A stretch of DNA of 64,000 nt from Cantharellus purpuraceus (lineage: Eukaryota > Basidiomycota > Agaricomycetes > Cantharellales > Hydnaceae). Positions 15,042 through 64,000 of the stretch are shown one piece after another. Both the position numbers and the translations under genes were made by a program. The stretch spans positions 1 to 64,000 of the forward strand of contig JALBUN010000029.1 in NCBI GenBank assembly GCA_025174535.1, given 5' to 3'. Under the pieces are notes generated by a model that searched no databases, was not told the DNA's origin, and saw nothing but the letters and a program-made list of their open reading frames with translations. Numbering within the stretch: the first letter of the stretch is position 1; every line of letters starts with the position of its first letter.

Positions 15042-15510
15042 TGTTACATCCTGTAACACCAAGTCTGACCTCTGGACTCCAACTCCACCTCCTTCTACTT
15101 CATCTCTGTCAACTCCATCTCTGACAATTCCATCTCCAACAACCTGGAACTCCATTTATTGTGTTCTTGATAAGTAGTCTCCTTGATATGGGTTACAATA
15201 ACTGTCACCTTTTATATTGATTAGTATTAGTTTGGACTTAAGTCCAAACTCTGATCTCCTTTCCATGTTGTATTCCATATCCATCTTATTGTTCTCCTAC
15301 TTTAGTTTTTTATTCAATTCTTCAGATACTTATATGGGCTATTCTCTGTATGTGACAGCAGTTCATATATCAACTAAGTTTGACCACCATGACCTTCTTG
15401 GTTGCTAGCTTCTTGACAAGTATCTTCTTGACAATTCAAACTCTGAATCCCTGATCCAACCCTGTACCTCCAAACTCCAAAATATTGGACTGACAATCTG
15501 AAGGGTGTGT
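15042..15510 (+). repeat. LTR type B, 3'-truncated copy
   Basis: Begins TGTTACATCCTGTAACACC and is homologous, in the opposite orientation, to the complete solo LTR at 40369-40975. Shared blocks include AAGTCTGA, GGACTTAAGTCCAAAC, CCATGTTGTATTCCATATCC, CTTGGTTGCTAGCTTCTTGACAAG and ATTGGACTGAC. Similarity is lost after about 15505, so the far end is missing. Confidence 0.7.
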
Positions 15511-19261: not shown

Positions 19262-20744
19262 ATGATGTCAAACCCTTTGGCAAACATGAGTGTGGCCAAG
19301 CTTGAGCAGTTGCTCCTGGCCCGGAGCGGAGATGGAGGGAGGAGGAGGAGGAGGAGGTGGTGGTGGTGGAATGGAGATGGAAGGAGGAGGAAGAGTGGAG
19401 ATGGAAGGAGGAGGAAGAGTGGAGATGGAAGGAGGAGGAGGAGGAGGAGTGGAGACGGAAGGAGGAGGAGGAGGAGCGGAGATGGAAGGAGGAGGCAGAG
19501 ATGGAACAGAGAAGGAGGAAGAAGTGAAAGCCAAGCAAGCCCGCAGGGTCAAGGAACTTGCGGCTGCGATGGAGGCCATGAGACTGAAGGAAGTGGAAGA
19601 GCAGGTGCACTTGCCGTTACATCTGCGGTCATGGCCATTATTTGCGGTGGGTGCAGCTGAGGAAGATGATGTGGCAGAGGTGGAGAGGGTGGAGGTGGAG
19701 GTGGATCCTGATGCCAATATGGAGCTTGATGCAAATGCAGAGCCCGAGGTGGGTGTGGATGTTGGGATGGATATGGAGCCGGATCTGACCTTGAATTGCT
19801 ACAAGGAGATGGCTTGGGTAGCCACGGTCGAAGCTCACAAAAGGGCAGAGCTCTATGCTGCTACCACCAAGAGGAACCTTGAGGTCATGGTTTTTTCATT
19901 GAAGGCACACCTGAGTGCTGATATGGACCAGAGGGTCATATGGTGCAAGGCAGAGAATCATGTGTTGGCGACTTGTAAGAAGGAGCTGTGTGTCGCTAGG
20001 TCAGCGATCCAGCTTTGCAAGCATGAGATGGAGAAGGTGGTGGCAGAACAGCAGGACAAGGAGGAGGAGAGGGAGCACTTGGAGGCCACATCGAGAAGGG
20101 GCAGACCACCCAAGGCTCTGGCTCTGACAGAGCCATTCGGCGGGCCCAGTGTAATTTGTGACTTGTATCGTGATGCGGGTGTGGAGTGTGTGTGGCCTAC
20201 TGGCCCAACTCGCCACCTTCGGTCCTGTGATCGTTGTCAGGGTCAGAAAGGAGGGTGTAGGATCAATGGAAAGTTTGATCCCCAAAGTCAGAGCATCAAG
20301 CCCTGACTAGTGGTACAAGGAGGGGTGGAGAAAGAATCAGAAGGTCATCCAACCAAAAGGTGGCAGATGGAGATGGGCGCTGTGGCAGCTGGGGGTAGCA
20401 GTGTCAGATCAGAAGGAGCAACGACCGGCACAGGTACAGGATGTGTTTCTGTGCCCAACAGTACCATGGGCCAGCTTATCCAGCTGGTTAACCTGCAGTT
20501 GGAGCACCTCTGGCGGATGGAGGGGTTGTTAGTGGACTTGGTGAAGATGATGAAATGGAAGGAGGTTCTTGAGGGTCGGCAGACTGCTGAGTTGCGTCAG
20601 CTGCGGAAGTTCATGGCCCCCTTGGACGAGGATTCAGATATGGGGGATGAGAAAGATTGGGTGTTGGATGTAGAGAGTGATGATGAGTTGGAGACGGAGC
20701 CTGAGGTAGACAAGGGGAGGGGAAAAAGGAAACGCAATGTATAA
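19262..20744 (+). pseudogene. Antisense extra gene of Ty3 family I, copy 1 (coiled coil, Zn2Cys6), broken
   Basis: Starts MMSNPLANMSVAKLEQLLLA, then enters a GGAGGA-rich repeat where indels change the frame. The proper frame resumes as ARRVKELAAAMEAMRLKEVEEQ. An acidic segment, a helical segment (SYKEMAWVATVEAHKRAELY) and SRRGRPPKAL (AT-hook-like) follow. The cysteine cluster is C-x2-Y-x6-C ... SCDRCQGQKGGC, so the second Cys of the Zn2Cys6 pattern is replaced by Tyr. A TGA after SQSIKP (20304-20306) breaks the frame, and the acidic tail (DVESDDELETEPEVDKGRGKRKR) ends at 20744. It faces the chromodomain end of pol, which is on the minus strand. See the intact-cluster copy at 54448-56091. Confidence 0.75.
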
Positions 20745-29126: not shown

Positions 29127-29752
29127 GATCTGTCTCTGCTTCTGCCCTCTCTGCCTCCACTGCATTATCCTCTTCAGCTGCACCCACTGCAAATAACAGC
29201 CATGGTTGCAGATGCAATGATGAGTCTACCGGAGGGGCAGTTGTCAGACAGGTCAACCCTTTCCATGTGACCGAGATAATGGTGACCTTGGGGGTCCCCG
29301 CCTGTATTGGCACACTCAGACTCCCTGGGTGACTAGTCACCCCTGCCCCGGTCACCTTCTCCTCTACCTCCATGGCAGCCTCTAGCTCATGCACCTGCTC
29401 TTCCACTTCCTTCAGCCTTGCAACCTCCATTGTGGCCACAAGCTCCTTGACCCTGCATGCTCGCTCGGCCTTTGCCTCTTCCTCCTTCCGCTTCCATTCT
29501 ATCTCCTCCTCCTCCTTCTGTCTCCGCTCCTCCTCCTCCTCCTTCCGCCTCCATTCCTCCTCCTCCTCCTCCTTCCATCTCCATTCCTCCTCCTCCTCCT
29601 TCCATCTCTATTCCTCCTCCTCCTCTTTCCATCTCTGTTCCTCCTCCTCTTCCTTCCATCTCCGCTCCGCTCCTCTTCTTCCTCCTTCCATTGGGCCAGG
29701 AGCAACTGCTCAAGCTCGGCCACACTCATACTTGCTAAGGGGTTCAACATTG
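29127..29752 (-). pseudogene. Antisense extra gene of Ty3 family I, copy 2, N-terminal part only
   Basis: The minus-strand frame MLNPLASMSVAELEQLLLAQ continues into tandem E/R-rich repeats (GAGGAGGAGGA on this strand) and MATMEVARLKEVEEQVHELEAAME. It is cut at 29126 by the type-C LTR before the AT-hook and cysteine cluster. A TATA box (TATAAAAGG) lies at 29781-29789 on the same strand and a type-A LTR fragment lies upstream of it, as in the other copies. Confidence 0.75.
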
Positions 29753-32890: not shown

Positions 32891-34601
32891 ATGCCCTCTG
32901 CCAAAGAACTTTGCCAGCAACACACCGCATTAGATAAGTCAATCACTGAAGCTGATGCCGCAGAGAAAAAGAAGGCAGAAGAGGAGAAAAGGATCACAAG
33001 GGAGGATGCAGCTTGTTGTTCCAGCTGCCGGACATCTAGCTGCCGGACTTCTGGGGAGAAAGGAGAGGAGAGGGGGATTAGAGGGGACAGGGGAGGAACA
33101 GGAGCATATAGGAGGCTCAGGAGGTTTGGAGGGGCAAAGGGGGTAAAGGAGGATGGTTACAGGAATGGAATAGGGAACAGGAGAAGCCCCTGTGAGTTCC
33201 AGAACTTCCTGGACATTATTTCACTTTTATTTTCATCATTTCATCATCATGGACACTCCCCCCCATCATCATCTCATCATCCATCCCATCATTGACTCAG
33301 GACATTCACGAATGATTTCATTCATTCATAGGACTTAGTATCATATAAATCACGTCTGTAATGCACTTGAAAAGACAGAGTAATTATCTCTCACATATTC
33401 TGTCTGTGTGTCTGAATCTATTCGTATCTGGAATAACTCCAGAACGAACACGTATTTCTATTAGCATTTGTATATTCTATTAGAATATTGCATATCCCAC
33501 TCGAATCTCGAATTATGAAGCCATTAAATCACTGGATATGTTTTTATTAAGCATTTACTTCAAATCGAATCACCTACTCCTGCTGCCTGCTGAATTAGCT
33601 TGTATCCAGACGAGGACTTATCCAAATCACTCCAAACATCACACCAAGATACTATTCAAGCGTGTCTCTCACATGAATGTGCATACATTGTGTTCCCATC
33701 ATTGCCCCATTTTCTATTCAACTTCTGCTCGTCACTACACCCCAGCAAGACGATTATTCACATTATTCAATAACACAGCTTGAGTCAGGGCAGAGGCTGC
33801 AAAGAGAAGGGCATTATCAGTAGTTGCGAAAGGCAAGGAAATAGCCAGGGATCCAGAGGAAGAATCCAAACTGGACCTCACATGTGATATGTGCATCAAG
33901 TGCAACGACATGTGTGAGTGGGCAATGGTGAGTGAAAATAGTGACTGGATGTCTGGATATCATACTGATGATTGCTTTTGTTTCCTAGACCAGAAAATCT
34001 TGCTCCTGCCTCATGTGCCAGACAAACTGGCTGAAATGCAAGGTAAAAGGGAGTGCTCCTCCTTGATGGAAATGCAATCATGAGGAGGGCAGCAGTGCAG
34101 TGGACCCTTCTCCCAAACATCAATGGACTAGGGCCACAAGTACAGGTCCTGCCATGGAGACCATTCCTCCTGCATTGGTTGAAGCTGTGCAGGATGTTAG
34201 TATTAACGTGGCTGTGGTGGCCCATCGATTAATTGAGGTTTCCAAGCACACCAAAAGGACAAATGCAGCTCTCCAGGGCATCAAGACCTATATGGGTGAG
34301 CTCATGAGGATGTTCCATCACTATATGACAGGACAGAGATGGGGTCCACTCCAAAGGGAGTTGGATGCACTGGAGCTGGAAGTTCTCCACCATATATGAT
34401 ACAGGCTTGAACTCCTCAGGATCTTGAGACTCCATGGAGAATCTCGATAGGTTGGATGATGAGAGGTGGTGGCCATGGGAGGAGATAGATAGGGTGCTTA
34501 GGGAGCAGGAGTTGGAATCAGAAAATCTGGAGAAGGAGGGAACAGTGGATGGGGAATCAGAGGAGTCAGGTGTAGGGGAATCAGAGATAGAGGAGAAGTG
34601 A
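32891..34601 (+). pseudogene. Antisense extra gene of Ty3 family II, copy 1 (coiled coil, Zn2Cys6, acidic tail)
   Basis: Lies between LTR and pol of family II, on the strand opposite to pol. Starts MPSAKELCQQHTALDKSITE, followed by a charged helix (EKKKAEEEKRITRED). A solo LTR (33014-33775) interrupts it, then comes AAKRRALSVVAKGKEIARD. The cysteine part is TCDMCIKCNDMCEWAM, an intron (33930-33990, GTGAGT...TCCTAG), and TRKSCSCLMCQTNWLKCK. Counting across the intron gives C-x2-C-x6-C-x10-C-x2-C-x6-C, the fungal Zn2Cys6 binuclear pattern. A helical region (VEAVQDVSINVAVVAHRLIE, MGELMRMFHHYMTGQ) and an acidic tail (SEESGVGESEIEEK) follow, stop at 34599-34601. Frame changes after the cluster and a TGA near 34430 make this copy non-functional. 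Role unknown; DNA binding is inferred from the cluster. Confidence 0.68.
33014..33775. mobile_element. Solo LTR type E, 762 bp, target duplication CAGCT
   Basis: Begins TGTTGTTCCAGC, ends CAATAACA. CAGCT at 33009-33013 is repeated at 33776-33780. Excision restores the joint seen in the second copy of the gene at about 37722. Short ORFs inside it have no known motif. No other copy in this window. Confidence 0.88.
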
Positions 34602-34664: not shown

Positions 34665-36911
34665 TCAAAACAATATGGGGCCAGGTTTATGAGGATAAGC
34701 CTGGTGGAAATTGGAGATAATCTCCATTGCATGTCCTAATTCCAAAGCTGGTAGCCAGGAGGTTTCATCATCTGTTCCTTCATATCCTGCCCACTTGACA
34801 AGGTATTGCAATTTGCATTTTTGTCTCTTGTTGATCTTGGAGTCCAGGATCTCTGATATCTTGTACTTTGGTTCTCCATCTATGATGACAGGAGGAACTG
34901 GAGTTGGTTCTTGACTGGAGAATGGATCTGGAGTTGAGGGTTCAAGCATGGAAATGTGGAAGACAGGGTGAATGGAGCGCATGCTTTCTTGTAGATGGAG
35001 GGTAAAGGAGTTAGAGCCTGCTTGAGTGATGATTTTGAAAGGACCAAGGTATTTTTCTGATAGTTTCTTGGAAGGTCTTGTGGTATGGATATTGTCAGAT
35101 TTAATGAAAACCTTGTCTCCAACCTTGAAGTCCAGGGCTGGGGATCAGTGACAGTCAGCAGAGGTGGAGTATTGGAGTTGAGCATTGGAGATGGTCTTTT
35201 GGAGATGCTGATGGAGTTCATGGAGATCTACAGTGAAGTCTCAAGCTCTTGAGGAAGAATGGAGATAAACCAGTAGTGGTGTTCAGAGCATTATTATATG
35301 CGAATTCTGTGAGTGGAAGTAAGTTGGACCAGTTGTCCTGTTGGTAGTTGCAATAGACTCAGAGGTACTGTTCCAGAGTCTGGTTCATTTGTTTGGTTTG
35401 TCCATTGGCTTCTGGATGGTATCCAGAGGTGAAATGGAGTTTGATGTCCAAAGCCTTTCTGAGGGTTTGGAAAAAGGAGGACATGAACTCTGTACCATGG
35501 TTGGAGGTAATGTGTGATGGAACTCCATCCTTGGAGAAGACATGGAGCATGAATAGTTTTGCAAGCATAGGAGCTGTGATGGTGTTGACTGTAGGAATAA
35601 AAATGGACTGCTTGGTGAGGCGATCCACAATAACTAAGATGGTGTTGTAACTGGAGGATGTTGGGAGCTTCTCGATGAAGTCCATGGATATGGAGTTCCA
35701 TGGACTCTCTGGAATGGGGAGTTGCTTGAGTAGTCCATAAAGAAGATGTCTCTGTGACTTTGAGCACATACAAGTGGTACAAGACTTGATGTAAGACTTG
35801 ATGGAACCATGGAGTTCAGGCCAGACATAGTCCCACCTGACTAGTTCTATAGTTTGGTTCTGTCCAAAATGACTGGAGATTGGATGGTCATGTTTGTTCT
35901 GGAGTACATGGAGTTGGAGATTGTTCATGTCGGGAACATAGATACAGCTGCCGAGATGCAGTAAGCCTTCTGGGTCAATGGACCAGCGATTGGTCAGTTT
36001 AATGAGATATCTGGAGATGGCTGGATCTGATCAGAGTGTGGATCGGATATCAGAGTGGAGTGTATCACTGTCCATAGTGATGGCTGCTCAGAGGGCTGGA
36101 GAGTAGAACATTGTTGCTTAGAGGGAAGTGGTTAATTGTTTGTTAGTGAACACAGGCCTAAGATTATGCAGGTTTACTGCTGCATAATCATTTCCTCCCT
36201 CTTTAGGATAGACATCCCATTGTCTAGTTGACAAGTCCAGTTTTGTACTGAGTTTGCTAGGATGGAAATGGATTACCAGATTAAACTGGGACAGGAATTT
36301 GGACCAGTGGGCTTGCCACTGTGTAAGGAGTTTGGTAATTGAAAAGTATTTGAGGTTCTTGTGGTCTGTGATGACATTGACTGGAGTTGGAGATCCTTCA
36401 AGGTAATGTGACCAGGACTCGAAAGCTTCAAAGATTGCAAGTAGTTCTTTATCATGGACATTGTAGTTGAGTTCTGCCAGAGTGAAAGTCTGGGAATGGA
36501 AAGCAATTGGATGAACCTTGTTGTCTGTTGGAGAGATGGTTGATAGAATGGCCACCAGTGTGTAGTCAGAGGTGTCAGTTTCTACAATGATCAGAGATCC
36601 TGGGTTCCATTGCAATAAGACTGGAGCTGTGGTGAAAGCTCTCTTTAATGTTTCAAAGGATGTCCAGCAGGAGTCTGAGAACTCCCATGGAGTTCCTTTA
36701 CAAGTTAAATGAGTCAGTGGAACTGTGAGGTCAGAGTAGTTGAATATGAAATGCCTATAGAAGTTGGCAAATCCTAAGAAGGATTGCACATCTTTGACTT
36801 TGCAGGGTTCTGGCCAATCTTGTATTACCTGGACTTTGCTGGAGTCCATAGTAAGTCTGTTTGGAGACAATATATATCCAAGGTACTCAACCATGCTCTT
36901 GTGGAAAGAAC
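34665..36911 (-). pseudogene. Ty3 family II element a: RNase H, integrase and chromodomain
   Basis: On the minus strand from right to left: the tail of RT (HKSMVEYLGYILSPNRLTMD), RNase H (LIIVETDTSDYTLVAILSTI, FTLAELNYNVHDKELLAIFE), integrase with SMDFIEKLPTSSSYNTILVI, TSNHGTEFMSSFFQTLRKAL and SGYHPEANGQTKQMNQTLEQ (D, D, E), then a chromodomain (EILDSKINKRQKCKLQYLVK, WAGYEGTDDETSWLP). The gene is cut at its RT end at about 36911 by the AT-rich MITE copy. Several stops and frameshifts (for example near 35945 and 35230). The second Asp is preserved (TSNHG, usually TSDRG). Confidence 0.88.
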
Positions 36912-43933: not shown

Positions 43934-45421
43934 GTCTCGTCCTTGAAGTCCTCCACAAACGTGAATGTACGTTTGTATGTTATTGCATAGATGGTCAAGG
44001 TGAGCATTTTAAAGTATTGGTTAGCGCCCTTGGACTTGTTCTAGAATCGTTCCCATTTTTGCATTTCTTCAAAGCGTGATGGACTTGACACTCGGGAGAT
44101 TGAGTACGCCGGACGAATAAAAGAACAGGACTCACCGGTCTCTCGCTATCCTTAGGGCCGGGCAAAAAAATTTCAAGTCAAGGCGATACAGCAGTGCTAC
44201 GATGCAAGTTAACATCGAGAACATGCCTGTCAGAGACACTAGGTACAGAATCCATTCACCGCAAAGGCACAAACACTTTTCTTCAATTGACATCTGTACC
44301 TCAATTTATCAGGTTCAGATTCAGCAGTGACTACGATAGCGTGAGCCGGCAATGTGTAGTCCGAGGTCAAGCAAAATTTTTTGACACCAATAAATATCGG
44401 CAAGCTGGATTGAAAAGTATTAAGCACAGAATTCAGGTCTGCTAAAATTTGCTGACTTTACGATGTTTTTTAAGCTTCGCATAGGATGACCGCATTTTTA
44501 TATCCATGTGTATAAACTCAATGAGCGCGATGAATATGAGTGTGACTAATTGAGAGTGACGTCAGACATCTGAATCTTCAGATGCCTTGTAAATCAAGCG
44601 TTATGTTGAAAGCGGAACTATGCCGGAGTTTAGCTCAGTCTACACGGTATGAGTGTAAAGACTGTTTTATATTTTAGCTATTCCGGAGTTTAGCTAAGGC
44701 AAAGGAAAATGTGAGCAACAATAGCTAGTAACTAAGTGGAATGTCTCACCTCTGTCTACACGGTATGAGTGTGAAGACTGAGGAGAGAGGACGGGAGTAT
44801 GACGTCGAAATATATTACTTATTATGGGTGCTTGTGGACTCACTGATCTATTTCCAACACGCTACTGCTAGTGGAAGTCTTAACGAAAACTGATCCGGTA
44901 GGAAGGTTGGGCTTTATAGTAACTATCCACAGCGGTTGGATTTGGCAGGTAACCTCATTTATTTTTACCAGACTCGGGCAATTACAGGAGCGAAATTTCA
45001 GGACACGCTCCCTGTTACAGCAGACCCTCACATATTGCATTGGATTTGGTCATCGTGCAACCAAATCGGGCGGCAGGTATATAAGCGCCTAAACATTTTG
45101 TTCATCACTGTATATCGGTAGGGCTGAGAGATAGCCTATGCAAATATCATGAGGATTCCCTCATGGAGGAACCTTCAAACAGTCTGCAGCCGGTACCCTA
45201 TAGCGCCTCAGGCCGAAATAACCTGTTTCTCCTCAACCGTGGAGCCTTGAGGCAACATCATCAAAGCCTACAGAACTCAGCAGCGTGGGAAACTTGGAGA
45301 TAGTGGCTCAAATCCAGCGGGGGACTCGATAGGAGAGCAACGGCGAGCAAAGGTCGTAATCATGTACATTCGGAAACCAGGTAAGCTTCTATTCACTATT
45401 CCATATCGACATACCAGTCTC
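43934..45421. other. Intergenic region between the two terpene cyclase copies
   Basis: Presumed promoter of copy 1 and 3' region of copy 2. It contains direct repeats: CTACACGGTATGAGTGT followed by A/G-AAGACTG at about 44640 and 44757, and CCGGAGTTTAGCT at about 44622 and 44684. Short open frames here have no recognisable motif. Confidence 0.5.
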
Positions 45422-47252
45422 CTAACATACTCTCTGGTTCGTAAAAGCATCGGCCGCCTGAATAGCTTTAATCGCCAACGCAGTCGTTAGTCCGACGTTG
45501 GCGATCGTGGCCCCCGATGATCCGAGTTTGTATATCGAGCCCGTTGCCCACGACCCATTGTCGCACTGCATCGAAGCCAGCTTCCGGACATCTGCATCGC
45601 AAACAAGTCCAACCGTCGCAGCTGCCAATATACGCATCCCTAACGCGAGGGAGTCTGCCTCAACCTCAAATCGCTCCATGACACGCGCCTTGTAGACATG
45701 GTTGAAGCGCTGATGAACGGAAGGTGAACTCTGCATGAGACGGGAGAGGAAGAAGAGGAACGCCTCTGCTGTCGTGTAGTACATGGTTCCTTCTATGTAT
45801 GCACGGCAGACGAGGCATGAATATACCCAGTCAAGGGTGGACTCCAGTTCATGACCACGGCCGTTACGATGAAACAGGGTGAGAACGTTGACACACACGA
45901 CAGGGTCTATACACAGATTCAATGATGAGGGTGACAGATATGGTTGAATCATACCTAGTCGAGGACGAGAGTGATCAAAGTACACTTGCACTAGACCATC
46001 TTGATCACGAAACGAAAGCATCTCATCCATGATATGGTGTTTTGTTGTCTCGTCAACATCTGTCACAGTCAATGCAATAGAAGAAGTATCTAAATCATCC
46101 CTGAATATCATGGAGACGGTCACAGCCTGGAACTACACACAAGATGCTCTGCTCACGGGAACTGGTCCTTCCAGAACACTGCTGGGATTTTCGGCTTGGA
46201 ATGTGAGTCACGAAAGAAATTGGACAAATGAGGCGACAGGTTATAATCCACAAAGGACCTGCATGTCGTTTTTAGTCAAACCTTGCACAGGAGTCTAAGC
46301 TTACGCACCTGTCACCAGTGGCTTCTTGAATGAGAAGCGGCGTATAATTCTGTAATTATTCTGAGACGTGCGAGGAATGGGCTGTGCTTTCGCTTCTCAC
46401 CTCGTGCAAGATTACACCATCGGAAGTCACAGAAGTCAGGTTTTTCCTGTTCGTACGCAGGAAACTCTTGGCTCGTTCGATCTGGTCCCCACAGAGAGCC
46501 TTCAATTGTTGTGTCACATTGGTGATGTTGTCGAACACAATGCCGTGCATTCCAAAAGAGCGTGCAGTGATCACATTTTCAATCTTGTCGTCCACAAAGA
46601 TGGTATGAGCGGGGTCAATACTGGCCTGTGTCAAGACATGTTTGTAAAATCCCATGTGCGGCTTGCGTTCGTGTGCCTTGGCTCTGAATTGTGCACTGTC
46701 AACGGAATTATGTGTATGATTGATCAAAACTCACGAGATGAAGATCTCATCGAAGAGGGACCACTGGGAAGGATCTAATTTCTTCTTGACTACGAACCAA
46801 TCAGGAGCAGACATGTTGGACATTGCGAAGATTCGTCGTCCACTTGCTTTGATAGCTGTGATTGTTTCGATCAGAGTGGCATTACACTTCAAAGATTCCC
46901 GAACAAGTGAGAAGGAGTGAGCCACATTTTTGGCAGGCAAGCTATACTCCTTGGCCACTTGCTCGTAGACCTCCTCTTCAGTCAGGTTCCCCTTTTCGTA
47001 TTCGAACCAGATCGAGGAGCGAAGGATGTGCTTGAGGACAACAGAGGATATGGGAGATTTTGAAGACGAGGTAGAGTATGTGAAGAGTACGTCTCCAAGG
47101 TCGAATATGACATTTTTGAAGCGCAGAGTGTTCGGGATGCCTGCTAGATGCGCTGCAATGTGAGGGTGTGTGTATTGTGTAGTATTATCCTCATCACGGG
47201 TGATGTCGTGATTCGCAACAGATGGGTGAGTAAAATTGGCTGTCATATCCAC
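45422..47252 (-). CDS. HAD-like class II terpene cyclase (drimane-type sesquiterpene synthase family), copy 2
   Basis: Fusion of an N-terminal HAD-superfamily phosphatase-like domain and a C-terminal class II cyclase-like domain. This is the architecture of fungal enzymes that protonate farnesyl diphosphate to drimane skeletons, some of which also remove the diphosphate. Exon 1 (47252 to about 46735) has KNVIFDLGDVLFTYS (HAD motif I) and IFAMSNMSAPDW (motif II). After a short intron (acceptor near 46684 or 46696) come ERKPHMGFYKHVL (motif III Lys) and IFVDDKIENVITA (motif IV). Further exons read NYTPLLIQEATGD and SFVDYNLSPHLSNFFRD. After an intron (46102-46157) comes PDDLDTSSIALTV, matching the D-x-D-T-T/S protonation motif (central Asp codon 46089-46091). 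An intron at 45907-45954 precedes VVCVNVLTLFHRNGRGHELE. The end CDNGSWATG is QW-like; stop at 45422. About 530 residues, no break seen. The product is inferred, not shown. Confidence 0.87.
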
Positions 47253-48333
47253 GGATGGAGGGGTGACACGTATGCTTGTGTGCGATTATACAAAGGAACG
47301 AAAAGGTCAAGCTTTTGTATAAGGTGTTGCTAGCGCCCCCCGAATGGATATGGTTTAGTGAGACAAAACCTGAAGGCAGCCATCACCAATCTTATTCTTG
47401 AAGTTCCGAAGGAAATCTAATTTATCCCTGAAGCATGACCGCTGGAAGAATGAAAAGCTTACTATATTGCTGTTTAAACCCCGTTAGGGTTTGAAGGCTT
47501 GAGCGCTTGAGCGCTAACTGGCAGCACTGGGCACTCAGTACTCGGTGGCTTTGAGCGCTGGAAGTGCAGGGTATCCTCTTCAATCACTGCGAACACGGGA
47601 AGTAATGCAGGGCCAACAGCTATCTCGGGACGCTGGACCTTGAGAGGCTGAATGTGAAGTTCGCTACTACTTCATTGGAATTAGTTAGGCAGTTTCAGGG
47701 CATGCGGGGGACCAAGAACGAATATCAAGATCATAGATCTGGACGACCTAGTCAAGTTGATTATATCTGAACGGCGGCCCATGACGAAACAATATCCGTA
47801 TTTTATCAGACTCACATACGGTGCTGGTCTACAAAGATCATTTTAGTAACGCTAATTTCGTTCGCAACGTTAGTTTGCACTATCAAGAGAGGTTTGAGTT
47901 TCACTTCCTTTGTTAAAATGTATGTTTTGGGTACTCATTGTAAAGCTGGTATGGTTATTTCCTCTACTTTGTTTGAGGAAAGAAGGGGAGGGAACAGCTT
48001 TCCCAGTAAGGAAAATCAAGGAAGACACGATACTGGCAACCGTGTGAATATAGTGACGCAATTACACTGCGGAACTAGTTACACTTCGCCACTCATGAAT
48101 TTCAGTATTAAAGACATTTCCCAATACTTCGTGTAATGTCGCTACTCTGCCAGAGAAGATGGATACTAGTCTCAATCTCACTAAAATTCCCTATCTATCC
48201 GAGTTGACGGAGTGACGAACGGCCCAACGGGTGCCGTCACGAGGTCGGCAGTGCCCGGCCGGCTTACTTATACAAAGTGACGACTGCTGGAAGGCTCATA
48301 GAATCCTTTTGACCTCAAGTTGTAAGCACCCTC
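47253..48333. other. Divergent promoter region between terpene cyclase copy 2 and glyoxalase I
   Basis: About 1.1 kb shared by two divergent genes. A GAGCGCTTGAGCGCTAACTG stretch near 47500 is a short direct/inverted repeat. An open frame at 47894-48136 (+) has no recognisable motif. No clear TATA box close to either start. Confidence 0.5.
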
Positions 48334-53794: not shown

Positions 53795-54306
53795 TGTTAC
53801 GCACTAGGTCCAATTGGGGGGTCAGAGATTGGGTTGGAGGTTGGGTTGGAGTCAGAGTATGTCGTGGGGGTCAGAACGGACTTGGCTTCAGCTTATGTGC
53901 TGCGCCCTCACTAATACTGGTGTCCGAGATTTCAGAGACGGAGTACGACTTAGAGAGTTAGGATTAGGAACTAGGCATGATTCAATATTCAAACTGGGGA
54001 ATCAAGTCCCCAGTCGGGCAACTTAAATTCATATTTTGAAATCTAATAATAATTACTCCGGTGATGGGTCTCCAAGGCCGACGGCCTTTCATGAGTATGT
54101 CTGAGTCCGATGGGGATGGATGTCCAGGTTCCTATGGTGATGCTGATGCATCAATCGGAACCGGAGACGGGTGGGTGGAATTGGCGGTGACAATCGGACA
54201 GGTAGATGGAGACATGGTGGTTTCCAAATGGAGTATAGATTTCATATGTGCGGGGATCTGAGTGGATTGGACAGGGATCTGGATGTTAATGAATATAGTC
54301 ATAACA
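53795..54306 (+). repeat. LTR type A of family-I element 1
   Basis: 512 bp, TGTTACGCACTAGGTCC ... AATATAGTCATAACA, inserted in the copia protease. The left target site would be ACAAG (53790-53794). Followed by the purine tract (minus strand AAATGGAGAGATAC) and the antisense extra gene. Confidence 0.9.
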
Positions 54307-54408
54307 GTATCTCTCCATTTAAGGCCGAGCCCCTGAGGCCTCATGTCCATGGATTGAATAGGTGAGATGGTTGGGTGCAGTCAGAGTTATACTGGGGGTC
54401 TGGAGACA

Positions 54409-54417
54409 TATAAAAGG
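54409..54417 (+). promoter_or_regulatory. TATA box of antisense extra gene, family I copy 3
   Basis: TATAAAAGG, in the same context as the other copies, about 31 bases upstream of the ATG at 54448. Confidence 0.6.
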
Positions 54418-54447
54418 AGGGGCGTGATTGAGGTCTTATCCTCAACG

Positions 54448-56091
54448 ATGTCAAACCCTTTGGCAAGCATGAGCGTGGCCGAGCTTGAGCAGTTGCTCTT
54501 GGCCTGATGGAAGGAAGAGGAAGAGGAGTGGAAATGGAAAGAGGAGGAGGAAGCAGAACAGAGACGGAAGGAGGAGGAGGAGGCGGAATGGAGACGCAAG
54601 GAGGAGGAGGAGGCAGAACAGAGATGCAAGGAGGAGGAAGAGCAGAGGCAGAAAGAGGTGGTGAAGATGGAACGGAGAAGGAAAGAGGAGGAAGCGAAGG
54701 CCGAGAGAGCCTGCAGGGTCAAGGAACTTGCGGCCGCAATGGAGGCCGTGAGACTGAAGGAAGTGGAGGAGCAGGCACACAAGCTAGAAGCCGCCATGGA
54801 GGTAGAGGAGGAGGTGACCAGGGCAGGGGCAACCAGTCCAGGAAGTCTGAGTGTGCCGATATGGACAGGGACCCCTGAAGTTGCCATCATCTCCGTTACA
54901 CAGACGGAGACAACTCATCTGAAAACTGTCACTGCGGAGGACTCGCCATTACGTCCATGGGCACGGCCATTATTTGGATTGGGTGCAGCTGAGGAAGATG
55001 AAGCGGCGGAGGTGGAGAGGGCGGAGGTGGAGGCAGATCCCGATGCCAATATGGAGCTCGATGCAAATGCAGAGCCTGAGGCGGGTGTGGATGTTGGGAT
55101 GGATGCAGAGCTGGATCCCACTTTGAATTCTTACAAGGAGATGGCTTGGGTAGCCGCAGTCGAGGCTCGCAAAAGAGCGGAGCTCTATGCCGCTACCACC
55201 AAGAAGAATCTTGACGTCACGGTCTTTTCATTGAAGGCGTACCCGAGTGCTGATACAGAGAAGCGGGAGGCGGATCGGAGGGTCATATGGTGCAAGGCGG
55301 AGAGTCGCGTGTTGGTGACCTGTAAGAAGGAGCTGCGTGTCGCAAGGTTGGCGATCCAGCTTCGCAAGCACGAGATGGAGAAGGCGGCAGCAGAACAGCA
55401 GGACAAGGAGGAGGAGAGGGAATGCTTGGAGGCCGCATCGAGAAGGGGCAGACCACCCAAGGCTCTGGCTCCAGCGGAGCCATTTGGCAGGCCCGGCGTA
55501 ACTTGCGACTTGTGTCGTGATGCGGGCATGGAGTGCGTGTGGCCTACCGGCCCAACTCGCCGACTTCAGTCCTGTGATTGTTGTCGGGGTCGGAAAGGAG
55601 GGTGTAGGATTGATGGAAAGTTCAATCCCCGGAGTCGGAGCGTCAAGCCCCGACTAGTGGTACAAGGAGGGGCAGAGAAAGAATTGGAAGGTCATCTGAC
55701 CAAAAAGCGGCAGATGGAGACAGGTGCTGTGGCAGCCGGGGGTAGCAGTGTTGGATTGGGAGGGGCAACGACTGGTGCAGGTATGGGGTGCGTCTCTGTG
55801 CCCAATAGTACTGTGGGCCAGCTTATCCAGCTGGTTAACCTGCAGTCGGAGCACCTCTGGTGGATGGAGGGGTTGCTAGTGGACTTGGTGAAGACGATGA
55901 AATGAAAGGAGGTTCTGGAGGGTCGGCGGACAGCCAAGTTACGTCAGTTGCGGAAGTTCATGGCCCCTTTGGACAAGGATTTGGACATGGGGGATGAGAA
56001 AGATTGGGTGTCGGATGTAGAGAGTGATGATGAGTTGGAGACAGAGCCTGAGGTAGATAAGGGGAAGGGAAAAAGGAAACGTGATGTATAA
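54448..56091 (+). pseudogene. Antisense extra gene of Ty3 family I, copy 3, with complete Zn2Cys6 cluster
   Basis: Starts MSNPLASMSVAELEQLLLA; a TGA follows immediately (54507) where copy 4 has CGA. E/R-rich repeats lead to ERRRKEEEAKAERACRVKEL, AAAMEAVRLKEVEEQAHKLE. From 54658 to 55905 the frame is open. It includes a Pro/Thr linker, an acidic segment (AEVEADPDANMELDANAEPE), a conserved helical block (SYKEMAWVAAVEARKRAELY), SRRGRPPKALAPAEPFGRPG (AT-hook-like), and CDLCRDAGMECVWPTGPTRR followed by LQSCDCCRGRKGGCRIDGKF. All six cysteines are there: C-x2-C-x6-C-x12-C-x2-C-x6-C. A helical stretch (GQLIQLVNLQSEHLWWMEGL) and an acidic tail follow, with a TGA at 55903 (copy 4 has CGG). The normal stop TAA is at 56089-56091. 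Confidence 0.78.
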
Positions 56092-56244
56092 AAAAAAAAA
56101 TGGAAATGATTATAAATTTCAGAGCAGAGAAAAATGAGTCGGAGTGATATTCCTTTGGAGTATTTTGGGCAGGCTGGTAATTTTCCTTGTGACTTGTAAT
56201 AAAATGATGATGCAAAATAATAGAATTAGCATTAGTAATCAAAC

Positions 56245-56585
56245 TTAAAGATTCATAAGAGGGCCAGGTTTGTCTGGATAAGCGGAGTGAAAGTTGGAGA
56301 CAGATTCGGATGCATGATCGAGTTCAGATGTGGAGATCCATGAAGACTCTTCATTGGTGCCTTCATATCCAGTCCATTTGACTAAGTACTGGAGCTTGCA
56401 CTTGTATTGACGGTTGATCTTCGAGTCCAGGATCTCAGATATCTCGTATTCATTGTCTCCTTCGATGATGATTGGGGGAGGTGGAGGTTGCGTGCAACCG
56501 GAGATCTCGTTTGTGGTAGTGGGTTCGAGCATTGATATATGGAAGACTGGATGAACTGCTTGGAAGTGGTCCAGGAGGTGGAGGG
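56245..56585 (-). pseudogene. Family-I element 1: integrase end with chromodomain, truncated
   Basis: Minus-strand MLEPTTTNEISGCTQPPPPP, YEISEILDSKINRQYKCKLQ, YLVKWTGYEGTNEESSWIST, stop at 56245. About 50 bases of upstream integrase remain before the LTR at 56587. The convergent antisense gene ends 153 bases away. Confidence 0.88.
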
Positions 56586-56586
56586 T

Positions 56587-57126
56587 TGTTACGTGCTAGG
56601 TCCGATTGGGGGTCAGAGATTGAATCGGAGGTTGGGTGGGAGGTTGGGTGGGAGGTTGGGTGGGAGGTTGGAGTACGTCGTGGGGGTTGGAACGGACTTG
56701 GCTTCAGCTTATGTGCTGCACCCTCACTAATACCGGTGTCCGAGAGATTTCGGAGATGGAGTACGACTTAGAGAGTTAGGATCGGACTTAGGAACTAGGC
56801 GTGATTCAATATTCAAACTGGGGAATCAAGTCCCCAGTTGGGCAACTTAAATACATATTTGAAATCTAATAATAATTACTCCAGTGATGGGTCTCCAAGG
56901 CCAATGGCCTTACGTGAGTATGTCCGAATCCGACAGGGATGGTGTCTGTTCCTATGGTGATGCTGATGCATCAATCGGAACCGGAGATGGATGGGCGGAA
57001 TTGGCGGTGACAATCGGACAGGTAAATGGAGACGTAGTGGTTTCCAAATGGAGTATAGATTTCATTTGCGCGGGGATCTGAGGGGATCGGACAGGGATCT
57101 GGACGTTAATGAATATAGTCATAACA
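56587..57126 (+). repeat. LTR type A, 3' LTR (gag-pol sense) of family-I element 2
   Basis: 540 bp, TGTTACGTGCTAGGTCC ... AATATAGTCATAACA. It contains four units of the 12-bp repeat. It lies in element 1's integrase at the point that reads AGGGT|GAAGG in element 2, so AGGGT (56582-56586) would be the left target site. Confidence 0.9.
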
Positions 57127-57141
57127 GTATCTCTCCATTTA
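57127..57141 (-). other. Polypurine tract of family I
   Basis: On the minus strand, AAATGGAGAGATAC directly precedes the 3' LTR. The same sequence is conserved at 19124, 29891 and 54307 beside the other type-A LTRs. It fits the second-strand primer site and confirms that the extra gene lies inside the element, between pol and the 3' LTR. Confidence 0.6.
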
Positions 57142-57228
57142 AGGCTGAGCCCCTGAGGCCTCATGTCTGTGGATTGAATAGGTGAGATGATTGGGTGTGG
57201 TCGGAGTTATGCTGGGGGTCTGGAGACG

Positions 57229-57237
57229 TATAAAAGG
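57229..57237 (+). promoter_or_regulatory. TATA box of antisense extra gene, family I copy 4
   Basis: TATAAAAGG followed by AGGGGC. With initiation about 25-30 bases downstream, the first usable ATG would be at 57265 rather than 57244. Confidence 0.65.
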
Positions 57238-57264
57238 AGGGGCATGATTGAGGTCTTATCCTCA

Positions 57265-58998
57265 ATGATGTCAAACCCTTTGGCAAGCATGAGCATGGCT
57301 GAGCTTGAGCAGTTGCTCTTGGCCCGACAGAAGGAAGAGGAGGAGGAGCGGAAATGGAAGGAGGAGGAGGAGGCGGAACGGAGACGGAAGGAGGAGGAGG
57401 AGGTGGAACAGAGACGGAAGGAGGAGGAGGAGGCGGAACGGAGACGGAAGGAGGAGGAGGAGGCGGAACGGAGATGGAAGGAGGAGGAGGAGGCAGAACA
57501 GAGATGGAAGGAGGAAGAGCAGTGGCGGAAAGAGGCGGCGAAAATGGAACGGAGAAGGAAAGAGGAGGAAGCAAAGGTCAAGAGGGCCCTCATGGTGAAG
57601 GAACTTGCGGCAGCAATGGAGGCTGCGAGACTGAAAGAAGTGGAGGAGCAGGCGCACAGGTTAGAGGCCGCCATGGAGGTAGAGGAGGAGGTGACCAGGG
57701 CAGGGGGAATCAGCCACCCAGGAAGTCCGCGTGTGCCAATACGGCCAGGGACCCCAGAAGTCACCATTATCTCCATTACACAGACGGAGACAACTCGTTC
57801 GAGGACTGTCACCGCGGAGGACTCGCCGTTACGCCCACGGGCACGGCCCTTATTTGAGTTGGGGGCAGCTGAGAAAGATGATGTGGCAGAGACGGAGAGG
57901 GCGGAGGTGGAGGCAGATCCCGATGCCAATGTGGAGCTTGATGCAAATGCGGAGCCTGAGGCAGGCGTGGATGTTGGGACGGATGCGGAGCCGGATCCCA
58001 CTTTGAATTCTTACAAGGAGATGGCTTGGGTAGCTGCAGTCGAGGCTCGCAAAAGAGCGGAGCTCTATGCCGCTACCACCAAGAAGAACCTCGATGTTGC
58101 GGTCTTTTCACTGAAGGCGCACCCGAGTGCTGATACGGAGAAGTGGGAGGCGGATCGGAGGGTCATATGGTGCAAGGCGGAGAGTCACGTTTTGGCAACC
58201 CGTAAGAAGGAGCTGCATGTTGCTAGGTTGGCGATCCAGCTTCGCAAGCGCGAGGTGGAGAAGGCAGCAGCAGAACAGCAGGACAAGGAGGAGGAGAGGG
58301 AACGCTTAGAGGCCGCAGCGAGAAGGGGCAGACCACCCAAGGCTCTGGCTCCAACGGAGCCATTTGGCAGACCCGGCGTAACTTGCGACTTATGTCGTGA
58401 TGCGGGTGTGGAGTGCGTGTGGCCTACCGGCCCAACTCGCTGACTTCGGTCCTGCAATCGTTGTCGGGGTCGGAAAGGGGGGTGTAGGATTGATGGAAAG
58501 TTCAATCCCCAGAGTCGGAGTGTCAAGCCCCGACTAGTGGTACAAGGAGAGGCAGAGAAAGAATTGGAAGGTCATCTGACCAAAAAGCGGCAGATGGAGA
58601 CAGGTGCTGTGGCAGCCGGGGGTAGTGGTGTCGGATCGGAAGGGGCAACGACTGGTGCAGGTATGGGGCGCGTCTCGGTGCCCAATAGTACTGTGGGCCA
58701 GCTTATCCGGCTGGTTAACCTGCAGTCGGAGCACCTTCGGCGGACAGAGGGATTGCTAGTGGACTTGGTGAAAACGATGAAACGGAAGGAGGTTCTGGAG
58801 GGTCGTCAGACAGCTGAGTTACGTCGGTTGTGGAAGTTCATGGCCCTGTTGGACGAGGATTTGGACATGGGGGATGAAAAAGATTGGGTGTCAGATGTAG
58901 AGAGTGATGATGAGTCAGAGACGGAGCCTGAGGTAGATAAGGGGAAGGGAAAGAGGAAACACGATGTTTCGAGCATTGATATATGGAAAACTGGATGA
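57265..58998 (+). pseudogene. Antisense extra gene of Ty3 family I, copy 4, one stop codon
   Basis: The most complete copy: open except for one TGA at 58441-58443 (copy 3 has CGA). MMSNPLASMSMAELEQLLLA, five 30-bp repeats encoding A/V-E-x-R-x-KEEEE (57360-57510), KELAAAMEAARLKEVEEQAH, AEVEADPDANVELDANAEPE, SYKEMAWVAAVEARKRAELY, RGRPPKALAPTEPFGRPG, CDLCRDAGVECVWPTGPTR, stop, LRSCNRCRGRKGGCRIDGKF, GQLIRLVNLQSEHLRRTEGL, then the acidic tail VESDDESETEPEVDKGKGKR. The last codons differ: after KHDV the frame runs on into pol sequence (SSIDIWKTG, stop at 58998) because a deletion has removed the normal stop and the chromodomain region. About 570 residues if the stop is read through. Likely nuclear DNA-binding protein by motif; no function known to me. 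Confidence 0.78.
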
Positions 58999-60177
58999 AC
59001 TGCTCGGAAGTGGTCCGGGAGGCAGAGGGTGAAGGACCTGCTGCCTGCGCGAGCAATGACCTCATAAGGACCTAAGTATTTCTCAGAGAGTTTCTTCGAT
59101 GGGCGGTAGTCCGGAAGTGTTCGGCCTTAACAAATACTTTGTCTCCAATTTGTAGGTCCGGAGCTGGAATGCGGCGTCGGTCTGTGGAGACTTGATATTG
59201 TTTCTGAGCATCGGAGATGGTTTCTCGGAGATGTTGGTGTAGTTGATCGAGGTCGGTTACGAATTGACGGGCTTTGGTGGAGGCAAGTTCCTTCTCAGGG
59301 TGGACGGAGATGTTCGGATGGTAGCCTTTATTAGCAAAGAACAGAGAGATGCCGGTAGTCATGTTCGGAGCGTTGTTGTAGGCAAACTCTGCTAACGGAA
59401 GCAGATCAGCCCAGTTGTCTTGTTGATAGTTACAATAGATTCGGAGATATTGTTCCAGGGACTGATTCATTCGTTCCGTTTGTCTGTCTCCTTCAGGATG
59501 GTATCCAGAGGTGAAGTGAAGCTTCATGTCAAGAGCCTTTCCTAGTGTGCGGAAGAAGGAGGACATGAACTCCAAGCCCCGATCGGATGTGACATGCGAT
59601 GGGACTCTGTGTTTAGAGAATACATGGAGAACGAACAATTTAGCTAGCGAGGGGAGGTGATGGTGTCATGCATCGGAATGAATAGTGACTGTTTGGTGAA
59701 CCTGTCAACAATCACAAGTATCCGAGCAATGGGGAGCTTTTCTATGAAATCCATGGAGATGGAGTTCCATGGTTGCTCCAGGATCAGAAGTTGCTTAAGC
59801 GGTCCGTAGGGTTTGTGCCTTTGCGATTTTGAGCACATACAGGTGGTGCAGGAGTTACAGTAGTGTTGAATGTATTCCCGCATTTTTGGCCATACATAGT
59901 CTCGTTGGATTAATCCTTGTGTGCGATTTTGCCCGAAGTGGCCGGAGATCAGGTGATCATGATAATACTGCAAAACTTGGAGTCGGAGGCCGTTGGCGTT
60001 GGGGACGTATATCTGGTTGTTGTGTCGGAGGTGTCCTTTAGGGTCAAGTGACCATTTCAGATCAGAAGGGTTGTCCAAGTGTTTAACTACAACAGGATCA
60101 GATCGGAGTGATGAGCGGATGTCAGAGTGGAGTTGGTCGATGTCCATAATGGTGACAGCTTGGAGAGTGGGAGTCAT
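58985..60177 (-). pseudogene. Family-I element 2: integrase, chromodomain deleted
   Basis: The HHCC zinc region reads YHDHLISGHFGQNRTQGLIQ ... YCNSCTTCMCSKSQRHKPYG. The core has SMDFIEKLP (Asp), TSDRGLEFMSSFFRTL (Asp) and GYHPEGDRQTERMNQSLEQY (Glu), then NNAPNMTTGISLFFANKGYH and GDKVFVKAEHFRTT. A frame break lies near 59640. After 59070 the frame is lost; the segment that encodes MLEPTTTN... and the chromodomain in element 1 is absent. Confidence 0.9.
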
Positions 60178-60239
60178 GAGGGTGGATGCTCATAGGGACG
60201 ATGCCAGCTGCTTGTTAGTAAACACAGGATGAAGTTGTG

Positions 60240-62273
60240 TGGGTTTACAGTGGCATAGTCGCTACTCCCCTCTTTAGGGTAGACGTCCCAGCGTCTAGTT
60301 AACGCGTTGGGCTTTGCTCCAAGTCAACCTGGACGGAAACGGATAATGAGATTGAACTGAGATAGGTATTCGGACCATCAGACTTGTCTCCAGGTGAGCA
60401 GTTTCATTGTGGAGAAATATTCCAAGTTCTTGTGGTCAGTTATGACGTCCACCAGATCAGAGGGACCCTCAAGGTAGTGTCTCCATATCTGGAAGGCTTC
60501 ATATATGGCAAGGAGCTCTTTGTCATGGACGTCATAGTTCAGTTCAGGGGGCATAAATGTACATGAGTGAAAAGCGATCGGGTGGACTTGTCTGTCGTCT
60601 GGAGAGATGATGGACAGGATCGCGGCAAGTGCATAGTCGGAGGTGTCGGTCTCTAATAGGATAGGAACATCTGGAACCCAATGAGTCAGTATCGGAGTGG
60701 AAGTAAAGGCTTTTTCAAGGTCTCAAAGCTCTGTCTACATTCATCAGTGAAATTCCATTGGATACCCTTCCTAGTGAGTCGGGTGAGTGGGACGGTGATA
60801 TCGGAGTAGCCGTGAATGAAGCGGCGGTAGAAGTTGGTGAACCCGAGGAAGGACTGTACATCCTTGACTTTCCGGGGTTCTGGCCATTCCTGTATGGCTT
60901 TGATTTTGTCATCGGACATTGTCAATCCTGCCGGGGAGAGGATATAGCCTAGGTATTCGACCGAGTCGGAGTGGAATTCGCATTTGTCAGCGTGGGCAAA
61001 GAGGCCATGCTTTCAGAGACGTCGGAGTACCTCTCAGACATGTGTCCGATGTTCTTCTTCATTCCGAATATACCAGAATGTCATCTAAGTAAACAAGGAC
61101 GGTCACATTGAGGAGGTCGGTGAAGGTATCATTCATGAACCGCTGGAAGGCGGTTGGAGCATTGGTTAGTCTGAAGGGCATGACGCACCACTCAAAAGAT
61201 CCATATTGTGTGCGGAAGGTCGTTTTCCATTCGTCACCTTCTTGGATACGGACTAGATGGTAGGCATGTCAGAGATCTATTTTGGAATAGATCTTAGCCT
61301 TTCGAGGACTCTCGAGTAGGTCCACGGTGCGGGGTATCGGGTATCGGTCTTTCTTGGTGATCTTGTTGAGTCCACGGAAGTCGACACATAGACGGAGTGA
61401 TCCGTCCTTTTTGTGGACAAATAGGACTGGAGCTCCATGGGGAGATAGGGATGGGCGGATGAAGCCCGTGGCCAAGTTCTTGTCTATGAATGTTCAGAGA
61501 GCCAGTAGCTCTTTTTGGGATAGCGAGTAGATAGGGCCAAGCAGAGGGGTGGAGTTGTCATCCAGTTCAATCTTGAGATCATATGGTTGGTGTTCTGCTA
61601 GGGAGTCGGCTTTAGACTTGCTGAACACGTCGGCGAACTCATGATACTATTTAGGAACCATAGATAGGTCCAGTGGAGTTGATTGGGCGGAATGAGCGGC
61701 AAGGAATATCAGATTGGAGAGGTGGACCTGGAATGTGTGAGAGCCATCCAGTTTGCTTAGTCTGGCGAAGACCATAGCATCCACCAGTGATATAAACGGC
61801 AGGGCAGATGGAGTATCTATTGGAGCAGAGTCAGCGGAGGCGGAAGATAGTTTCACACCTAAAGTTGCTGGTGACGCTGGGGATGACACAGCCTGTACTG
61901 GAGAACAGAATGTGATATGGCCCAATGCCCAGTCAATCAACGGATTGTAGCGGGTGAGCCAGTTATGTCTGAGAACCACAGAACAGCTGGAGTCAAGCGG
62001 AGTAACATAGAATGTAAGGTTCTGGATTTCTCTGACAGAAAAACAGATAGACAGATCTATAGCTTGTGAAATAACAGCATTAGTAGTGCCATCAAATAAT
62101 CGGAGTGGTATCGGAGTTATGGTGTATGTATGGAGTTTATGTAAATCAGAAAAAGAGGAATCGAGGAAACAGTGAGTAGAACCGGAGTCAATTAATACTT
62201 GGATAGCGGTATCGGGAATGGAGTTGGAGTAAATGAGGAGGGTAAGGGAGTCGGAGGGAAAGAGTGGATGCAT
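60240..62273 (-). pseudogene. Family-I element 2: protease, reverse transcriptase, RNase H
   Basis: Protease: [20 protein letters not shown] near 62190 (active-site DSG) and [62 protein letters not shown], and on the minus strand near 61075-61110 a [13 protein letters not shown] box. RNase H region around 60240-60925 includes VKDVQSFLGFTNFYRRFIHG at its start. Stops (for example near 61649, 61490 and 61268) and frame breaks near 60720 and 60300 inactivate it. Confidence 0.88.
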
Positions 62274-63498: not shown

Positions 63499-64000
63499 TG
63501 TTACGCACTAGGTCCAATTGGTGGTCAGAGATTGGGTTGGAGGTTTGGTTGGAGTCGGAGAAGGAGTCGGGTACGTCATGGGGGTCAGAACGGACTTGGC
63601 TTCAGCTTATGTGCTGCACCCTCACTAATACCGGTGTCTGAGATTTTGGAGACGGAGTACGACTTAGAGAGTTAGGATCAGACTTAGGAACTAGGTGTGA
63701 TTCGAACTGGGGAATGAAGTCCCCAGTCGGGCAACTTAAATACATATTTGAAATCTAATAATAATTACTCCAGGGATGGGTCTCCAAGGCCAATGGCCTT
63801 ACATGAGTATGTCCAAGTCTGACGGGGATGGATGTCCAGGTTCCTATGGTGCTGCTGATGCATCAATCGGAACTGGAGATGGATGGGTGGAATTGGCAGT
63901 TACAATCAGACAGGTAAATGGAGACGTGACAGTTTCCAAATGGAGTATAGATTTCATACATGCGGGGATCTGAGTGGATCAGACAGGGATCTGAGTGGAT
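63499..64000 (+). repeat. LTR type A, 5' LTR (gag-pol sense) of family-I element 2, runs off the window
   Basis: Begins TGTTACGCACTAGGTCC and follows the other copies to the last base; about 20-30 bases of its far end are outside. Together with 56587-57126 it bounds a 7.4-kb element. The minus-strand sequence just inside it, GTATATTCGAACTGCCATAC, is conserved in element Y, but I cannot identify a standard TGG-type primer-binding site. Confidence 0.9.

Follow-up and report, generated by a model that had tools for sequence, protein, structure and literature searches.

The first 64,000 nucleotides of contig JALBUN010000029.1 from the basidiomycete Cantharellus purpuraceus (assembly GCA_025174535.1), hereafter the window, contain Ty3 long terminal repeat (LTR) retrotransposons that carry an additional gene, antisense to pol, in the stretch between the end of pol and the 3' LTR. 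Its product combines a charged N-terminal repeat with a cluster of six cysteines (Cys6), and comparison of its copies across the genome identifies it as a protein-coding gene that is borne by the element and maintained by selection.

Organization of the elements in the window

The span 53795..58998, flagged in the original prediction, holds two copies of the gene in two minus-strand Ty3 elements, one of which (B) is inserted in the integrase end of the other (A). Each element presents an LTR of ~0.5 kb (TGTTA...TAACA), an internal stretch of ~140 bp with the TATA box TATAAAAGG, and then the plus-strand gene of ~1.7 kb, the 3' end of which faces the 3' end of pol. The predicted placement of the gene, opposite to pol and between the pol end and the LTR, is seen in both elements. 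The TATA box lies inside the element, ~100 bp outside the LTR, and a reading in which the gene start is part of the LTR was ruled out by the repeat matches.

In element A, the 3' LTR (53795..54306; placed, like that of B, by repeat matches with its ends read) is followed by TATAAAAGG at 54409..54417 (+), in a segment conserved in other copies, by the antisense gene at 54448..56091 (+), with in-frame TGA codons at 54505 and 55903, and by an integrase C-terminus with chromodomain at 56260..56586 (-; tblastn), which is cut by the insertion of B. Element B begins with its 3' LTR (56587..57126), with TATAAAAGG, conserved across copies, ~100 bp inside the element at 57229..57237 (+) and the antisense gene at 57268..58998 (+), which has an in-frame TGA at 58441. 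The native end of this gene copy was lost by a deletion at ~58968 that fused it to the integrase and removed the chromodomain, such that the RNase H/integrase region of B (58968..60778, -; tblastn) lacks it. Beyond this lie a 208 amino acid (aa) open reading frame (ORF) between RNase H and gag, a putative protease by position (61650..62273, -), gag with Pfam matches PF03732 and PF16297 (62369..63430, -), and the 5' LTR, placed by repeat matches with its last ~25 bp unmatched (63499..63993). Given the in-frame TGA codons in A and B and the loss of the chromodomain in B, the gene copies of the window are decayed, and selection was measured across copies. The Chromo domain (PF00385) at the integrase C-terminus, matched with E 3.9e-7 in copy L011, places the element among the chromoviruses.

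Two further places in the window carry the gene of this family (family 1), both located by tblastn: a copy at 19265..20741 (+) and a fragment at 29164..29750 (-). As originally described, TATAAAAGG precedes the ATG of the same gene by 30 bases at four sites, 19226 (+), 29789 (-), 54409 (+) and 57229 (+); its one remaining occurrence in the window, at 15216 (-), is unrelated. Features of the window between ~32000 and 59000 recur in inverted order on contig C8 at ~31000-60000 with 95-100% identity, representing either a second haplotype or a segmental duplication. Genomic copy counts may be inflated by such pairs.

The antisense gene travels with the element

Searches of the 40.15 Mb genome (50 contigs) recovered more than 100 loci of the gene, the family 1 lists comprising the best 106 of 1087 candidates for the gene and the best 150 of 1012 for the integrase; 20 further copies, chosen among the best gene matches, were fetched with their surroundings. 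Complete elements show a constant order of LTR, promoter stretch, gene, gap, integrase with chromodomain, pol, gag and LTR. The ORF between pol and the 3' LTR lies on the opposite strand in most copies, as in the class of antisense ORFs termed aORF-3R. Among ten elements with a second LTR in reach, six (L014, L023, L024, L025, L027 and L031) are bounded by perfect 5-bp target duplications that enclose the gene. Against these six, the duplication is absent from two (L028, and L019, where the LTR is common to a second, tandem element), and in two others (L016 and L021) one element end was not located. In L019 two family 1 elements stand in tandem with one LTR in common, and a second gene copy follows it.

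The same association is evident from the integrase side. Inspection of the next 500 bases at 16 family 1 integrase ends, mostly drawn from the upper part of the match list rather than at random, showed that 15 run directly into the gap and the 3' end of the gene, L046 being the one without it; one of the 16 (C2:14209) has a listed gene 2.1 kb away, and setting it aside gives 14 of 15 for the ends that had no gene in the list. All 43 family 1 gene and integrase pairs that lie within 3 kb of each other, among the matches listed, are arranged tail to tail, and the distances between copies in the gene and in pol are correlated (r 0.77; 151 pairs). The expectation that the gene would occupy the same place in other copies was thus borne out in nearly all sampled ends of this family, with L046 as exception. 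It did not extend to one copy of a different, less decayed Ty3 family (L034), in which ~2710-3635 contains no opposite-strand ORF of at least 60 aa, the limit at 3635 being where the pol frame starts being covered and the end of that element not having been located; two ORFs beyond this stretch (113 and 76 aa) sit opposite its pol frame. The stretch ~2640-4401 of L034, together with 489-nt RVT_1 matches, represents this other family, which has stop-free frames of up to 1342 aa and is apparently younger.

Selection acts on the coding frame

The ratio of nonsynonymous to synonymous substitution (dN/dS) over 29 copies of the family 1 gene is 0.30 in the real frame, against 0.83 and 0.78 in the other forward frames; the three reverse frames give 0.97, 0.94 and 0.45. 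The last value is taken to reflect shared silent positions, and minus-strand ORFs opposite the gene were rejected on these values as genes in their own right. Purifying selection had been set beforehand as a test of the prediction, with a value near 1 counting against it.

The CpG observed/expected ratio of 0.73 accompanies CpG transitions that we read as decay of methylated copies, which inflates dN/dS. With these transitions removed, the ratio of nonsynonymous to synonymous differences per site (pN/pS) is 0.151 (bootstrap 0.119-0.193; 28 copies, the partial copy W29 being excluded) and 1.07 (0.80-1.47) in the frame shifted by one, which rules out that the low value stems from CpG decay. The same measure for RNase H/integrase is 0.137 (0.104-0.175), from the 18 of 20 copies for which pol was aligned, so that constraint on the antisense gene is like that on other proteins of the element. 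These intervals are indicative, since pairwise comparisons are dependent. Codons that were gapped, contained a stop or differed by more than one change were excluded from pN/pS. L006 (duplicate of L017) and L013 (of L020) were left out; L007 (L014), L008 (L010) and L012 (L016) are unused repeats, while the close copies W57 and L002, from the region duplicated on C8, were both retained.

Codon pairs that differ by one transversion include 7 nonsynonymous and 28 synonymous cases among variants present in at least 4 copies, and 75 and 50 among singletons. In the shifted frame the corresponding counts are 28 and 2 (at least 4 copies), 30 and 3 (2-3 copies) and 83 and 17 (singletons). Amino acid changes have been purged among the common, older differences, a pattern that selection would leave if it operates while elements are live and ceases once they have inserted. 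A chance origin of the reading frame is ruled out by the more than 100 loci and the selection at the codon level.

Candidate signals of an antisense transcription unit

TATAAAAGG is present in all 20 fetched copies, and the ATG in 19 of them, having been lost in L015. Divergence at non-CpG sites, profiled over 18 copies (L016 and L021 excluded), reaches its lowest value between the LTR and the integrase start in the TATA box and leader (0.010), compared with 0.094 in the LTR, 0.060 in the gap, 0.096 at third codon positions and 0.042 at first and second positions. The 45 bp adjoining the LTR are also little diverged (0.022), and plus-strand priming is expected to take place there. In addition, TTGTAATAAAATG, which resembles a poly(A) signal and stands ahead of the integrase end, occurs in the gap in 17 of the 18 family 1 copies that reach it. 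The conserved TATA box and leader together with this poly(A)-like sequence are signs of an antisense transcription unit.

A second family with an intron-bearing gene

A second Ty3 family (family 2) is represented at 34.7-36.7 kb of the window by an RNase H/integrase/chromodomain region (34668..36708, -; tblastn) that is 58-65% identical to that of family 1. On the opposite strand, beside its pol end, lies a gene with a comparable cysteine pattern that is divided by a small intron of the spliceosomal type. Its first exon (32891..33927, +), itself interrupted, ends in ...CDMCIKCNDMCEWAM and contains CDMCIKCNDMC; a 61 bp intron running from GTGAGT to CCTAG follows (33928..33988, +), its splice sites being found in other copies; and the second exon (33989..34601, +) opens with CLMCQTNWLKC, ends in an acidic tail, and contains stops and a frame change. 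The intron falls between the third and fourth cysteines. The family 1 gene lacks an intron there. At ~39300 of the window, a family 1 LTR end immediately precedes the 3' half of an intron belonging to a second family 2 antisense gene, and the element seems to have inserted in that intron.

Family 2 comprises 34 integrase loci at ≥81% identity among the matches listed. The gene is placed tail to tail within 2 kb at 28 of these (27 by script and C10:370167 by eye), and the remaining six lack it in that arrangement, although one of them, C11:688695, has the end of exon 1 adjoining. The short exon 1 pattern on its own gave 49 matches, against 60 in a reversed control. Of the 49, 24 have the family 2 codon ACM or GCM (by eye), and 21 of these 24 continue with GTRAGT, against none in the reversed control. 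At the start of exon 2, searched with a pattern that leaves the two bases just upstream unspecified and requires a pyrimidine ahead of these, TAG was found in 21 of 21 matches (1 in the reversed control). Introns delimited by hand at eight paired places, two of which are the C8/C29 duplicate, measure 59, 61, 61, 62, 62, 65, 65 and 67 bp, and none is a multiple of three. Exon 2 shows a pN/pS of 0.19, against 1.05 and 1.68 in the shifted frames (4 copies).

Features of the encoded protein

The predicted spacing C-x2-C-x6-C-x12-C-x2-C-x6-C holds in family 1, where, of 29 aligned copies, the 28 that cover a given cysteine retain it in 27 or 28 cases. The N-terminal E/R repeat, which is mostly of 10 residues with runs of E and of R/K, varies in number and length between copies; we take it to resemble a single charged helix of the ER/K type more than the coiled coil originally proposed, and the W and Q residues within it look like products of CpG decay of CGG codons. 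Basic patches resembling nuclear localization signals and acidic tails were recognized by eye in both families.

Other features of the window

Outside the Ty3 elements, the window contains an HSP70 gene (PF00012) in at least two open pieces (4632-6740, -), a piece of an ABC transporter gene (PF00005; 10934-11509, +) and the gag of a copia-type element (PF14223; 16315-16968, +). A tandem duplication of ~3.3 kb (42094-44008 and 45422-47285, -), 86-99% identical in the repeats listed, carries a gene with a match to HAD hydrolases (PF13419), the DDLDTSS motif of which presumably recalls class II terpene cyclases.

Relation to known antisense genes of retroelements

Antisense ORFs between pol and the 3' LTR are described, in passages of PMC7264820, for the plant elements Grande, RIRE2 and Retand and for the fungal element Boty. 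The gene described here shares this place with Grande gene23 and with the ORFs of RIRE2 and of the Silene and other Retand elements. Passages of the same source attribute to maize gene23 its own promoter and a nuclear product, and count a role in nuclear entry among the suggestions made for plant antisense ORFs. Passages of PMC7264820 and PMC11963269 report a predicted DNA-binding activity for the TRP28 domain of Retand and describe the role of antisense genes in LTR retrotransposons as unknown. Retand belongs, according to a passage of PMC11963269, to a non-chromovirus plant lineage; as described, its ORFs carry TRP28 or SMC domains and are thereby set apart from the Cys6 cluster found here. 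Moreover, the passages that deal with the plant ORFs mention no intron, whereas the family 2 gene has one. A counterpart in place and strand within fungi is brtn of Boty in the ascomycete Botrytis cinerea, an extra gene that likewise runs antisense in the stretch from pol to the 3' LTR (passages of PMC7264820; title of Zhao et al. 2011 as cited in PMC8365987), which is likened here by the description of its place only.

A further parallel is HBZ of human T-cell leukemia virus type 1 (HTLV-1), a retrovirus, for which we claim no sequence relation to the present gene. HBZ is a bZIP factor with a spliced message. With respect to splicing, the conserved splice sites of family 2 would be consistent with such a message, while family 1 lacks an intron at the corresponding place. 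By place the two are alike: as a passage of PMC11963269 relates, HBZ lies antisense at the 3' end of its retroelement, and its product is nuclear. The promoter position differs, since that of HTLV-1 lies inside the 3' LTR according to a passage of PMC7264820, and the TATA box here lies outside it. Searches of the open PubMed Central literature listed no account of a basidiomycete chromovirus with an antisense gene for a Cys6 protein. As far as these searches show, the novelty lies in the Cys6 cluster, in the occurrence in an agaricomycete chromovirus, in the intron and in the selection measured here.

Proposed role and alternative explanations

We propose that this is an accessory antisense gene of two related Ty3 chromovirus families, the product of which acts as a nuclear DNA- or chromatin-binding regulator, and put the probability of this statement as a whole at roughly 0.55. 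Its first component, a selected protein gene borne by the element on the antisense strand, is practically certain. Binding of the protein to DNA or chromatin in the nucleus, predicted from its sequence features, has about an even chance, and its regulation of the element's own expression we advance only tentatively.

The proposed course of events would start with a separate mRNA transcribed from the antisense strand. The signals of the family 2 intron read backwards on the gag-pol strand, and given this polarity the intron would be spliceable only from the antisense transcript; genomic RNA should then keep it, and reverse transcription would leave it in place. The protein, with its charged N-terminal repeat, Cys6 cluster, basic patches and acidic tail, would most likely enter the nucleus, where the Cys6 cluster may bind DNA or chromatin. 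There it could regulate the element, either through feedback on LTR transcription or by countering the silencing of copies; the original prediction would have it act on the LTR or on target choice. A bolder version, which we consider doubtful, would have a group of fungal chromoviruses maintain a self-promoted antisense gene with an intron, whose product, of a new family of Cys6 DNA-binding proteins, would switch the element's expression or lift its silencing as an HBZ-like regulator of independent origin; the antisense orientation would then allow the intron to survive each round of reverse transcription.

Several observations weigh against the proposal of a regulator. Fungal Zn2Cys6 transcription factors have the same spacing of six cysteines, but the membership in this family put forward in the original prediction found no support: the protein has no Pfam match to Zn_clus (PF00172) at E<=1 or E<=10, and a genome-wide search with that profile (44 candidates, all scored) returned 19 places, none at the listed genes. 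Classical members of the family have a basic run in the first half of the cluster; here such a run stands after the fifth cysteine and within the second half, and no recognised regulatory domain accompanies it. The RGRPPK motif, likewise put forward as an AT-hook, is not a conserved feature, with R at its fourth position (the second R of RGR) in 10 of 28 copies and G in the other 18, and the core was not seen by eye in the family 2 protein. No relative of the protein was found at E<=1e-3 in the protein database (7999 and 3785 candidates scored) or in a search of the PDB, and viral contigs yielded no relative of either pol or the gene. As a control, the same protein database yielded 4653 relatives of pol at E<=1e-10 among 8000 scored, with up to 75% identity; the four named hits within the best 120 show 64-70% identity and belong to Trametes (two), Leucocoprinus and Coprinellus. 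Fungal elements are thus represented, but the antisense protein is too divergent, too lineage-specific or unpredicted in that set. Among one-transversion codon pairs in 2-3 copies the silent excess is absent (22 nonsynonymous, 14 synonymous). Finally, profile comparison of the two families brings the second halves of the cysteine clusters into register with a probability of just 3.8% (E 0.011, one comparison); given this weak similarity, the case for homology of the two proteins comes chiefly from their place, strand and cysteine spacing. Of the element-borne regulator originally suggested, the antisense gene, its promoter-like core and the selection on it stand, while Zn_clus membership and a conserved AT-hook are not supported.

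The main alternative is an accessory role in integration or nuclear entry, in which the protein would accompany the pre-integration complex and, jointly with the integrase chromodomain, aid in reaching or choosing targets instead of regulating transcription. The gene adjoins the integrase, its product has basic patches, selection on it is about as strong as on RNase H/integrase, and the nuclear-entry role suggested for plant antisense ORFs (in a passage of PMC7264820) would be a precedent. A component of the particle, in contrast, would not need expression uncoupled from gag-pol, as is suggested by the separate promoter-like core and the antisense strand, and we consider this role rather unlikely. 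It is much less probable that the gene was captured from the host long ago and has been passively carried, or that it is a chance neighbour of insertions. The intron of family 2 fits a cellular origin, and a divergent host source is possible, as the best 106 of 1087 candidates were scored. Against this, the gene has the same place and strand in two families that differ as much in pol as noted above, its divergence tracks that of pol, and the target duplications enclose it; a gene captured beside a single insertion, which would have undermined the prediction, is also not what the target duplications and the 15 of 16 integrase ends indicate. Passive carriage predicts dN/dS near 1 and does not fit the purifying selection, while an old host origin of the gene is conceivable.

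A non-coding antisense RNA as the functional product, serving as a source of small RNAs or in copy-number control with the open frame incidental, recalls the antisense RNA control described for retroelements and discussed for plant antisense ORFs (in passages of PMC7264820), and the promoter core is the most conserved stretch; yet the pN/pS of 0.15 against 1.07 in family 1 and of 0.19 against 1.05 and 1.68 in family 2, together with the lower divergence of first and second codon positions, makes this scarcely credible except as an additional role. An accidental ORF is very unlikely in view of the many copies, the two families, selection equal to that on integrase, and the conserved promoter core and splice sites.

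If the proposed course holds, the keeping of the intron through antisense orientation would offer a simple rule, of general reach, by which retroelements could bear spliced genes. With the gene delimited, its transcription and splicing and the localization and DNA binding of its product become directly testable.

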